Part shown: positions 45,215 through 50,367 of the stretch, one piece after another
Numbering within the stretch: the first letter of the stretch is position 1
Layout: every line of letters starts with the position of its first letter
DNA from: Sporosarcina oncorhynchi
GTDB taxonomy: Bacteria; Bacillota; Bacilli; Bacillales_A; Planococcaceae
Reading direction: 5' to 3'
NCBI RefSeq assembly: GCF_033304615.1
Contig: NZ_CP129118.1
Location: 1,856,001 to 1,920,000 of the forward strand
Length of the DNA stretch: 64,000 bases
The notes under the pieces: model-generated
What the model saw: only the letters and a program-made list of their open reading frames with translations
The model's database searches: none
Told to the model about the DNA's origin: nothing
Translations under genes and position numbers: made by a program

Positions 45215-45667
45215 TTACCACCCTGTTTCTCTTCTATGGAACTTTAATGTAGACAATTCGTCTAGCATAGTCGATTCTATCTGTTCCATTTCCGTTCGAT
45301 AATGCTCTTTGTCTTTTTCTTTCATTTTTTCGTACTTCTTCACTTCAATCGACTTTTCCAATAGTTTCTCTTCATACCAATTCATTTTCGAACGAGCTTT
45401 GATGACAGATTGTTGGAGTGTGTCGATACGCTTTTCCAGACTGTCGATGAAATGGGCGAACTGATGAATATCCGTAATGAAGAATCCCTCCGCAAGCTTT
45501 TGCTGGTGCTTGTCAGTTACATCTTCTTTCTTCTTCAGCACCTCATACAGTTCGTTTGCGACGGCTTCAAAAGACTCCACAGACTTCTTAAACTCCATTT
45601 CCGTATCCGTTTTTTCCTGTTCGCGGAAATTGAGCACTTTTTCGAATCGATATTGATAGGGTTTCAA
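45215..45667 (-). CDS. fliJ: flagellar export chaperone/stalk protein FliJ
   Basis: Coiled-coil stalk of the flagellar export ATPase. It has 150 residues, almost entirely helical with heptad patterns, starting MKPYQYRFEKVLNFREQEKT, a sequence typical of Bacillales FliJ. Overlaps the fliI end by four bases (ATGA-type). Role: couples FliI rotation to FlhA, known from other species. Confidence 0.93.
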   Translation of the reverse strand: MKPYQYRFEKVLNFREQEKTDTEMEFKKSVESFEAVANELYEVLKKKEDVTDKHQQKLAEGFFITDIHQFAHFIDSLEKRIDTLQQSVIKARSKMNWYEEKLLEKSIEVKKYEKMKEKDKEHYRTEMEQIESTMLDELSTLKFHRRETGW

Positions 45668-46989
45668 CGTGAGTCACCTCCTGGAGCCAGTGATATCAAT
45701 TCACTGATACTATCTTCCATACTCACATTATCTTTATAGCTTTGTTTTAAATAGTTTGTAATATGTGGTTCAAATTCAATTGCCTCATCAATCTCACGCG
45801 ATGTACCTCGTTTGTACGCCCCAATGTTGATGAGATCTTCAGATTTATCATACGTATAATATAATTCACGAAGTTTTTCTGCGGCTTTCACATGATCCGG
45901 ACTGGCAATATGGTTCATAAGACGGCTGACGCTCTTTAATACGTTTATGGCTGGATATTGTCCTTTGTTCGCAAGTGTCCTGTCCAACACGATATGCCCG
46001 TCTAAAATACCGCGGACAGCATCCGCAATTGGTTCGTTCATATCGTCCCCGTCAACTAGAACTGTATAGAAAGCGGTAATCGCACCCACTTCATTCGTTC
46101 CTGTCCGTTCTAATAGTTTTGGTAATATGGAGAAAACGGATGGGGTATACCCCCGCGTGGCAGGCGGTTCACCGACTGCAAGCCCAATTTCACGCTGCGC
46201 CATTGCGACTCGTGTGACGGAATCCATCATTAGCATGACATTCATGCCTTTATTCCTGAAGTATTCTGCAATCGCCGTTGCCGTGAAAGCACCTTTAATA
46301 CGCATGAGGGCTGGCTGGTCTGATGTAGCAGCAACTACTATCGTGCGGCTCAATCCTTCTGGACCCAAGTCCCGTTCAATAAATTCACGCACTTCTCGTC
46401 CACGCTCACCGATAAGACCGATGACATTTAAATCTGCGGTTGTATTTCTCGCAATCATTCCGAGAAGCGTACTCTTCCCTACACCGGAACCCGCAAATAT
46501 GCCTACACGTTGTCCATTTCCAACTGTCAGCATCCCGTCGATTGCTTTGACACCTACCGCTAATTTTTCATTGATTGGCATACGAGAAAGTACATTTGGA
46601 GGCTCCTGTTCAGCGCTGACAGTAGAAAGTCCTTTCGGCAATGCACTTTTATCGATCGGATTCCCCATCGAGTCCAACACTTTCCCAATCAGATTCATGC
46701 CGACTTTAACTTCCAATGGTTTGCCAGTGCTTTCAACAAGACACCCACTTGATATGTCATTAATACTTGTATAGGGCATCAGGATAACGATTTCTTCACG
46801 AAACCCAACAACTTCCGCAAGAATGATTGAATCTTTATCATTATTTAAATGGATATGACAGACGTCCCCGACTGAACTTACTGGTCCTTGGGACTCAATC
46901 ATCAGACCGACAACACGAACAACGCGTCCGAACTTCGGAAATGTATTCAATTTCGAAATAGATCCTATTAGTTCTTCAGCTTTCTTCAT
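45664..46989 (-). CDS. fliI: flagellum-specific export ATPase FliI
   Basis: Hexameric ATPase related to F1 beta, energising flagellar export. It has 441 residues: N-terminal beta barrel, Walker A AGSGVGKST at 166-174, VGLIGERGREV-type signature IGLIGERGREVREFIERDL, Walker B LMMDSVTR, and PSVFSILPKLLERTG. ATPase motifs are intact. Two bases after fliH stop; overlaps fliJ. Confidence 0.97.
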   Translation of the reverse strand: MKKAEELIGSISKLNTFPKFGRVVRVVGLMIESQGPVSSVGDVCHIHLNNDKDSIILAEVVGFREEIVILMPYTSINDISSGCLVESTGKPLEVKVGMNLIGKVLDSMGNPIDKSALPKGLSTVSAEQEPPNVLSRMPINEKLAVGVKAIDGMLTVGNGQRVGIFAGSGVGKSTLLGMIARNTTADLNVIGLIGERGREVREFIERDLGPEGLSRTIVVAATSDQPALMRIKGAFTATAIAEYFRNKGMNVMLMMDSVTRVAMAQREIGLAVGEPPATRGYTPSVFSILPKLLERTGTNEVGAITAFYTVLVDGDDMNEPIADAVRGILDGHIVLDRTLANKGQYPAINVLKSVSRLMNHIASPDHVKAAEKLRELYYTYDKSEDLINIGAYKRGTSREIDEAIEFEPHITNYLKQSYKDNVSMEDSISELISLAPGGDSR

Positions 46990-46991
46990 TT

Positions 46992-47687
46992 TCAGTCACC
47001 ACTTTCCATTAGTTCAACGAGTTTTTCTTTCAGTTCAATCAATTGATCATCTACACTGACAACGATTCGCCCTTGATTTGTTTCAATCATACATTCACTT
47101 TTCTCAAAGTCTTCATTGGCAAAGATCAGAAACGGAATATCTGGAGGGAAAACAGCGGCAAGTTCAGTTCTGTTCGCTGACACATTTTCATAGTCTTCCA
47201 TTGAGATATAGAGCTTAATCTCTTTCGATTCCCTTGCTTCTTTCAAGCCTCTTTTCACCATTGTGATGAACGTATCGTCATTTTCATCCAGGACAGATCC
47301 AAGAATCCTTTCAGCAGTTCGCATCGCTAGTTCGAGAATGACTCTTTCTTGGCCTTCTATATACTTAATGGCATTTACCTTTGAATGCTCGGTTACCTCA
47401 TTCGCAATTCTTACCGCATCGCTCATTTCAGCCAATGCTTTATTGCGACCTTCTTCATAACCGACTTGGAAGCCTTCGTCGTAAGCAGCTTGTTGCAGTT
47501 GAACTTTTTCTTTTTCCCAAGACGAATGCATATCGCGGATATCATCCAACGCAGTCTGTCTCAACTGTTCAAGATTTGCTTTTTCAATCTCAATCGTCAT
47601 ACGCGCTTCTTTGAGCATCTTGTCCCGTTCCAGGAAAAACACTTCACGCGACAATGTTTCCTCTGTTCTTGAAGCGTACTCTGGCAT
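46992..47687 (-). CDS. fliH: flagellar export ATPase regulator FliH (5' end out of frame)
   Basis: Dimeric stator-like regulator of FliI. As annotated from the first in-frame ATG it has 231 residues: a charged coiled coil (about 10-75), DEGFQVGYEEGRNKALAEM, and the C-terminal FliH/V-ATPase E-like domain (ILELAMRTAERILGSVLDEN). This ATG has no ribosome-binding site. A much better start, TTG at 47764 with GGTGGAGGGGA upstream and overlapping the fliG stop, encodes a plausible FliH N-terminus but is one base out of frame with the rest. Either a one-base deletion in the T4 run at 47727-47730, a sequencing error, or a shifted start. The body is secure, the 5' end is not. Confidence 0.9.
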   Translation of the reverse strand: MPEYASRTEETLSREVFFLERDKMLKEARMTIEIEKANLEQLRQTALDDIRDMHSSWEKEKVQLQQAAYDEGFQVGYEEGRNKALAEMSDAVRIANEVTEHSKVNAIKYIEGQERVILELAMRTAERILGSVLDENDDTFITMVKRGLKEARESKEIKLYISMEDYENVSANRTELAAVFPPDIPFLIFANEDFEKSECMIETNQGRIVVSVDDQLIELKEKLVELMESGD

Positions 47688-47764
47688 ATTCAGATTTCTG
47701 ATGGTAATTTCTTTAACGTTGCCATCTTTTGAAACGTCCTAGACGAACGGAATATATTAGACAA
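47688..47764 (-). other. displaced N-terminal coding segment of fliH
   Basis: From TTG 47764 the frame reads (M)SNIFRSSRTFQK; after the AAAA run (47727-47730) a frame shifted by one base reads DGNVKEITIRNLN and enters MPEYASRT of fliH. The joined 26-codon segment would need 78 bases but 77 are present. Adding one A to the run restores a continuous gene. Confidence 0.75.
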
Positions 47765-48770
47765 TGACGTCATCCCCTCCACCGCGGGCTATGATGATTT
47801 CTCCTGAATCCTCTAATCTTCTGATGATGGAAACAATCCTCGCTTGTGCTTCTTCAACATCACGCAATCTCACAGGACCCATTACTTCCATCTCTTCCTG
47901 GAATGATTCAGCCATCCGCTGGGACATGTTCTTAAATAATATTTCGCGTACTTCCTCACTGGACACTTTAATGGACAAGACAAGGTCTTCATTTTCACAT
48001 TCCCTGACAATCCGCTGAATTGAACGATTATCCAACGTGACAATATCTTCGAATACGAACATTCTTTTTCGAATGTCTTCTGCGAGTTCGGGATCCTGGA
48101 TTTCAAGCGCATCGAGTATTGTCTTCTCGGTTGCGCGGTCTACACCATTCAACACTTGAACAACTGCATCGACGCCACCTGTTTCGGAGAAGTCCTGTGT
48201 GACAGTCGAGGACAATTTCCTCTCGAGTACAGCTTCAATTTCACTGATTACTTCAGGTGAAGTTGAATCCATCATGGCAATCCTTTTCGCGATATCCGCC
48301 TGCATTTCCTGAGGCAGAGAAGATAAGATCATACCAGCTTGTTCGGCATCCAAATACGACAAAATCAAAGCAATCGTCTGCGGGTGCTCATTTTGAATGA
48401 AGTTTAAGATTTGACCAGGATCTGCTCTTCTTGCAAAGTCGAATGGTCGAACTTGCAGTGATGAAGTTAAACGATTAATGATCGCCTGGGCATGTTCTTT
48501 TCCAAGAGCTTTCTCCAAAACAGTTTTCGCATAACCAATACCGCCTTGCGAAATGTAATCTTGAGCAAGTGCTATATTATGGAATTCAGAAATAATTTCA
48601 TCCTTGACGATAGAATCGACCTTTTTCACACCTGAAATTTCAAGTGTCAACCGCTCAATTTCCTCTTCAGTCAAATGTTTATAGACAGCCGCCGAAACTT
48701 CCGGTCCCAAAGATATGAGAAGGAGTGCAGCTTTTTGTTTGCCTGTCATCCCTTTATCTTTCTTTACCAC
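47757..48770 (-). CDS. fliG: flagellar motor switch protein FliG
   Basis: Torque-generating rotor protein. About 337 residues: N-terminal domain with TGKQKAALLLISLGPEVSAA, middle EHPQTIALILSYLDAEQAG (EHPQ motif) and C-terminal charged torque helix around QRIVRECENEDLVLSIKVSS with MGPVRLRDVEEAQARIVSII. GTG 48770 lies 7 nt from GGAGG and is my preferred start; ATG 48776 abuts the ribosome-binding site and could also be used. Its 3' end holds the ribosome-binding site of fliH. Confidence 0.96.
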   Translation of the reverse strand: MVKKDKGMTGKQKAALLLISLGPEVSAAVYKHLTEEEIERLTLEISGVKKVDSIVKDEIISEFHNIALAQDYISQGGIGYAKTVLEKALGKEHAQAIINRLTSSLQVRPFDFARRADPGQILNFIQNEHPQTIALILSYLDAEQAGMILSSLPQEMQADIAKRIAMMDSTSPEVISEIEAVLERKLSSTVTQDFSETGGVDAVVQVLNGVDRATEKTILDALEIQDPELAEDIRKRMFVFEDIVTLDNRSIQRIVRECENEDLVLSIKVSSEEVREILFKNMSQRMAESFQEEMEVMGPVRLRDVEEAQARIVSIIRRLEDSGEIIIARGGGDDVIV

Positions 48771-48783
48771 GTTCATCCCTCCG

Positions 48784-50367
48784 TCAATCTTCGGCAATCC
48801 AAGTTCTCAACAGCTTAGCGAACTCTTCAGGTTTATCTTTCGCCATTTTCTCAAGTTGCTTCTTACGTAACGTAGCTTCCGTTTCTTGCTCAGTATTAAT
48901 GTCATCTATTTGAAGTGACACTTGCTGTTCTTCGATGATTAACTGCTCTTCAAGTTCCTGATCACGTTTCCGTTTCCTGAAGAACGCTACAACTAGAATA
49001 GTTATAACGACTAACAGTGCAGCACCGATTGCGTAGACCCACCAAGGTATCTTTGTTTCCGCATTGGAATCCACCGGTATCATCTTGCCATTAAACACTT
49101 GAGTAGAAATTGCAATCTTATCTTCCCAATATTGATCTGTGATCGTTGCAGGCACGTAAGTTTTATCAATCGATGTGCTAATAATTGCTTTTAGAATATT
49201 TTTCACTTCTTCTGTACTTGTAAATGAATTCATATCTTCTACATCAGGTGGTTCTATCATTACTTGAATACCGATATCCCGGATTTTATAAGGACTTTCA
49301 ACAATATCCTTACGTATTCGGTTTACTTCATTGTTAATGGTCTCTTCCAGACGATCGTAATCACCGTTCGCATTATTTCCTTCAACGTAATTCGTCCTGT
49401 TATCGGTAGGATCTTCCCCTTCAGGAATACCACCGACTACAGCTCCATCGCCGGAAAACGATTCTGTTATCCGCTGGACACTGATGGCTAAACTATCAAG
49501 ATCTTCGTCAACTCGGTCAACCAGATTCTCCTGCCTGTTTTCCTGTTTAAAATCAATATCTGTCGTAACGGAGACGATGACTTTGTCTTGTCCAATCATC
49601 GTACCGAGCATCATTTGCACTTTGCGTTGCAAATCCGATTCAATGCTCTTTTTCAGATCCATCTGATCGACGATATTCGTACCGGTTGACCCAGATCTTA
49701 GTTCAATTGATTCGGAATATTGATTAATGATTTTAATATCATCCGTCGATAAATTCGGTAAGCTCTTAGATACTAAATTATATAGTGCATTAACTTGTGG
49801 TTCTGTAAATTGATGACCAGGTTCTGTGACAAGCATAATTGCTGCGCTTGCACTTTGTACAGACTCATTTAAGAAAACACTCTGTGTCGGCAAAGTAATC
49901 ATGACATTTGCATCTTTAACACCTTGAATTCCTTTGATCAGATTACCCAGTTCTGTTTGCATCGAAGCTAGTTTGATCATATTGAATTCATTGTCAGTAG
50001 TGCCGAATCCCGCGTTCTGCGAGAAGAACGAATAATCGATCATGCCCGTATGAGGGTACCCTTCTGCAGCTAAGGAAACGAGAAGACTATCGACCTGCTG
50101 TTTTGGTACGAGAATCGAAGTTCCACCCGGTGCTACCTGACTTGGTATTCCCTGAGCATCAAGTTGCTCTTTAATTCTGCCGATCTCAGCACGCGAAACA
50201 TCCTTGTACAGAGGGGCATATTCAGTTCTGGATAGAAAAAAAGTCAGAAGTGCGGCTATCGCGATAACTGAAATTACAGAAGCAATATATGTTGTTTTTT
50301 GTCTTTTAGTGCGACTTGACCAGTACTGTTGCAAATCAGTCCTAATTTTCGTCAATCGTTCATTCAT
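48784..50367 (-). CDS. fliF: flagellar MS-ring protein FliF
   Basis: Forms the MS ring, the base for rotor and export gate assembly. It has 527 residues: N-terminal membrane helix (about 25-45), ring-building YscJ/FliF domain (about 46-220, including YPHTGMIDYSFFSQNAGFG), second domain with beta-collar, C-terminal helix (about 435-460, WVYAIGAALLVVITILVVAF) and a cytoplasmic tail that binds FliG (EFAKLLRTWIAED). Length and topology are normal. Between fliE and fliG; 13 bp before the preferred fliG start. Confidence 0.97.
   Translation of the reverse strand: MNERLTKIRTDLQQYWSSRTKRQKTTYIASVISVIAIAALLTFFLSRTEYAPLYKDVSRAEIGRIKEQLDAQGIPSQVAPGGTSILVPKQQVDSLLVSLAAEGYPHTGMIDYSFFSQNAGFGTTDNEFNMIKLASMQTELGNLIKGIQGVKDANVMITLPTQSVFLNESVQSASAAIMLVTEPGHQFTEPQVNALYNLVSKSLPNLSTDDIKIINQYSESIELRSGSTGTNIVDQMDLKKSIESDLQRKVQMMLGTMIGQDKVIVSVTTDIDFKQENRQENLVDRVDEDLDSLAISVQRITESFSGDGAVVGGIPEGEDPTDNRTNYVEGNNANGDYDRLEETINNEVNRIRKDIVESPYKIRDIGIQVMIEPPDVEDMNSFTSTEEVKNILKAIISTSIDKTYVPATITDQYWEDKIAISTQVFNGKMIPVDSNAETKIPWWVYAIGAALLVVITILVVAFFRKRKRDQELEEQLIIEEQQVSLQIDDINTEQETEATLRKKQLEKMAKDKPEEFAKLLRTWIAED

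Follow-up and report, generated by a model that had tools for sequence, protein, structure and literature searches.

A private one-base frame break at the start of fliH in the Sporosarcina oncorhynchi assembly and its probable origin as an uncorrected deletion

In the 64,000-nucleotide stretch of Sporosarcina oncorhynchi DNA that was analysed (the window), the 5' end of fliH was found to be interrupted by the lack of a single base. The N-terminal segment and the body of FliH lie in separate frames here, versus one frame in all 57 relatives that were read, and similar breaks were observed elsewhere in the same assembly. Judged by these sequence comparisons, the one-base deletion is probably an uncorrected sequencing or assembly error.

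All features of the fliG–fliH junction described here are on the minus strand. The fliG gene (47757..48797) is open along its full length, with matches to FliG_N, FliG_M and FliG_C above cut-off, and ends with a stop at 47759-47757. An initial reading of the DNA, made from the sequence only, had described a TTG start codon overlapping this stop and preceded by a ribosome-binding site, and both were confirmed: the TTG is at 47764-47762, and a GGAGG is located 11 bases upstream as part of a Shine-Dalgarno-like GGAGGGG (47774..47780), which falls inside the coding end of fliG and has a similar counterpart at the same place in the relatives. From the TTG, an open frame of 24 codons leads to a TGA at 47692-47690 (47690..47764), corresponding to the fliH start of the relatives but cut short. 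This frame reads SNIFRSSRTFQK, and the neighbouring frame reads DGNVKEITIRNLN before running into FliH, both as given in the sequence-only reading. Upstream of the FliH body, the FliH frame is open only as far as a TAG at 47741-47739. Comparison with the relatives revealed two conserved pieces of the FliH N-terminus, the first consisting of the start codon and SNIFRSSRT (47735..47764) and the second, SKDGNVKEITIRNLN (47688..47732), sharing its frame with the body. The body begins with MPEY at an ATG (47687), comprises 231 aa (46992..47687) and holds the FliH-domain match (PF02108; 39.6 and 37.7 bits, cut-off 24.1). The earlier statement that this in-frame ATG lacks a ribosome-binding site was also correct, as no Shine-Dalgarno sequence was found before it and the best match was only a TGA, 2 bases away. 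The large ORF 3' of fliH in the ORF list (45664..46989) was taken to be fliI from the gene order. A fliH gene adjoining fliG is usual in Bacillales. The gene matches the FliH flagellar assembly protein family (PF02108) in its domain score above the curated cut-off, its position directly after fliG and its TTG with Shine-Dalgarno sequence as in the relatives; it departs from the usual FliH in lacking a base after codon 10, so that N-terminus and body are separated.

A search for the FliH protein covered 101 genomes, among them the strain's own, and 89 gave a match. Besides the own genome, 58 matches were labelled as the same genus and 30 came from other genera. The start region was read in 57 of the 58 same-genus matches, leaving out G003 (28% identity) and the 30 other-genus matches. 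In all 57 (27 loci, then 30), the TTG that overlaps the fliG stop opened a single frame continuing into FliH; for 28 of these loci, the frame was traced over 108 to 117 codons, as far as the retrieved sequence extended. Such a comparison of fliH starts in close relatives had been suggested in the sequence-only reading, which would have been refuted by relatives whose FliH starts at MPEY behind a good ribosome-binding site and lacks an upstream homologous segment. No such relative was present among the 57, each of them being open from the upstream TTG, and the ATG of the MPEY start was absent from many. The N-terminal segment in the relatives starts with SNIFRS or alike and includes a conserved stretch resembling KEITIRNL, which varies. 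The locus of the window was the only broken one of 28 read together, and it was also unlike the 30 further same-genus loci. The break was shared by none of the 57 same-genus relatives, which include no other strain of the same species, and on this comparison it is private to this assembly among the genomes read. As all 57 relatives were unbroken, a slippage-dependent gene maintained across the genus is excluded. In this genus, the TTG overlapping the fliG stop is indicated as the start of fliH.

A scan of named genomes provided 7 loci. Two of them, from Psychrobacillus vulpis and Lysinibacillus alkalisoli and not counted in the 57, match most of FliH and have a frame that stays open between the end of fliG and FliH, in the latter species starting from an ATG; the remaining five match over 25 residues only. 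Within the genus, G005 and G013 gave no FliH match in the search of the 101 genomes, and G003 gave only the distant one. In these three genomes the flagellar set may have been lost or replaced.

The place of the missing base was determined by alignment to the closest relative, G029, whose FliH has an identity of 83%. The first frame of the window matches G029 up to ACG (47737-47735), and the FliH frame matches it already from TCA at 47732 (SKDGN versus SKEGN). Between ACG and TCA there are three bases in G029 versus two in the window, and the missing base is therefore within 47737-47731, where the window has ACGTTTC. A reading of 'FQK' at this point was discarded as out of frame and of the right length by chance, given that the FliH frame matches G029 from TCA. 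The A4 run that had been named as the point of the break is present at 47730-47727; however, the alignment places the missing base just 5' of it, between ACG and TTTC, and the run is already within the FliH frame, so that it was rejected as the site. Of 26 codons beside the break that were compared with G029, 10 differed, 8 of them silently. This proportion of silent differences indicates that the break is young or not real. Both N-terminal pieces have probably been under protein-level selection until very recently, or still are. Since both align to the one-frame segment of all 57 same-genus relatives read, the frame break appears to be more than chance.

Frameshifts elsewhere in the assembly were surveyed by frameshift-aware alignment of genes to G029 in three sets of stretches, using ORFs of at least 100 codons with an identity of at least 60%. 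For this assembly, 278, 165 and 50 genes were tested (493 in total, 167,833 aligned residues), and for the reverse test of G029 the numbers were 283, 163 and 50 (496 in total, 166,424 residues). Events, comprising frameshifts and stops with at least half of the residues identical on both sides, numbered 19, 10 and 1 here and 16, 9 and 1 in G029. The raw totals were thus 30 versus 26, with most events at over-extended ORF starts. The events were sorted first by eye and then by a third-position filter, fixed after the events had been seen, which retained a frameshift (stops were not counted) if each side showed at least 5 base differences with third codon positions making up the majority of these. 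Three frameshifts in the 493 genes of this assembly passed this filter versus none in the 496 genes of G029, and each of the three was read as one base missing. With such small numbers, this is no more than suggestive of an excess of one-base deletions in the assembly.

The three genes were fliH, a transketolase gene and a gene that we call radical-SAM-like from its cysteine motif. For fliH, third positions accounted for 4/7 and 12/18 of the differences on the two sides of the break. The corresponding shares were 13/21 and 11/16 for the transketolase, broken near residue 343 of 668 (genome position ~1,809,771) and continued in the next frame by an open, conserved remainder, and 10/15 and 11/16 for the radical-SAM-like gene, broken near residue 145 of 581 (~2,082,765). 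The broken transketolase scored 507 bits against the transketolase profile and was the only strong match of the genome, the other two matches scoring 28.6 and 18.5 bits. The 28.6-bit match, a frame of 639 codons, is above the family cut-off of 22 and is presumably the related enzyme Dxs.

Because a transketolase gene elsewhere in the assembly shows the same kind of break, the most likely source of the fliH break is a sequencing error rather than a new mechanism. A healthy strain would hardly be expected to have lost its only clear transketolase, which further favours an assembly error. The gene would then be an ordinary fliH, starting at the TTG that overlaps the fliG stop, and the private deletion just after codon 10 would have arisen as an error left uncorrected in the assembly. 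In the living strain, both pieces would form one reading frame and FliH would be normal, with ~257 residues like its counterpart in G029. We infer that the organism's DNA does not carry the deletion; as a biological feature, the observed frame break is likely not real. As described for long-read assemblies in PMC12007338, false deletions are known to fragment genes, the majority of errors are short indels (predominantly false deletions in one assembly that was tested) and the highest numbers of false deletions follow runs of four to five. The lesions found here resemble the gene-fragmenting indels of that account in being one-base deletions that have also hit a central metabolic gene, but differ in that the runs at the fliH site are short (GG, T3, A4), a point against the error reading. 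Also against it, all three lesions would fall on one side by chance about 1 in 8 times by our own arithmetic, and 3/493 is plausible as a rate of genuinely broken genes. The fliH break by itself has little significance; the assembly is flagged in that its frameshifts should not be taken as biology without reads.

Of the causes put forward in the sequence-only reading, sequencing error and recent deletion both remain, the former being favoured. A deletion that is real and recent in the sequenced strain is rather unlikely, though it is the sequence as it stands that shows the shorter form, and no further frameshift event was seen within the window when its genes were compared with G029. In that case, ribosomes starting at the TTG would stop at the TGA (47692-47690), and some may reinitiate at the ATG (47687) to give a 231-residue FliH without the N-terminal segment; alternatively, FliH would be lost and motility impaired. 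The TGA and the ATG are two bases apart, a spacing that suits termination-reinitiation. However, the ATG lacks a dedicated ribosome-binding site and is not kept by many relatives, both fliH pieces still look to be under selection, and a lesion of the same type in the only strong transketolase match is difficult to reconcile with a healthy free-living strain. According to PMC9114704, binding of FliN and FlhA in Salmonella involves the extreme N-terminus of FliH, which also helps to localize the ATPase complex; loss of this end should therefore matter, and a shortened FliH might work poorly if the deletion were real. The two Trp residues of the Salmonella N-terminus mentioned there have no counterpart here, as no Trp is present in the N-terminal FliH segment of this strain. 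It is very unlikely that the deletion is real and that flagellar export proceeds with little or none of the conserved N-terminus, using either a shortened FliH, made when ribosomes terminate at the TGA and reinitiate at the ATG, or traces of full-length protein from a -1 slip.

The third of the proposed causes, a slippage-dependent gene, was not supported. Under this reading, the frames would be joined through a one-base shift of ribosomes or RNA polymerase somewhere in 47741-47690, and the two pieces when joined do give the N-terminus seen in the relatives. The AAG codon at 47728 is a conceivable place for a -1 slip, A AAG being a -1 slip motif. Programmed -1 frameshifting of the dnaX or IS3 type is alike in that a -1 shift would join the fliH frames, but no slippery heptamer X XXY YYZ was present in the zero frame over the 25 codons that lead from the TTG to the TGA, and the break is not conserved in any of the 57 same-genus relatives. 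Transcriptional slippage wants a long run of A or T, about eight or more, and no run in this region is longer than the A4. Both mechanisms were rejected on these grounds, and slippage is considered highly improbable. A genuine start at MPEY with a noncoding upstream piece scarcely deserves credence: the in-frame ATG at 47687 exists, but without a ribosome-binding site, and the upstream piece is in the FliH frame in all 57 relatives read, with mostly silent changes. This candidate was likewise rejected.

Under the same filter, stops were left in three ORFs here versus one ORF in G029. The three were an ORF apparently antisense to flagellar genes (a guess), a transposase-like ORF (also a guess) and a decayed gene at ~274,758-275,500 of the genome. 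The last of these exhibits two frameshifts and a stop here, is open in G029 and was dropped by the frameshift filter; from its sequence it looks like a really decaying gene. Also dropped was a transposase-like ORF (again a guess) at 1,796,877-1,797,486, the last 20 residues of which look out of frame relative to G029 after an A7 run.
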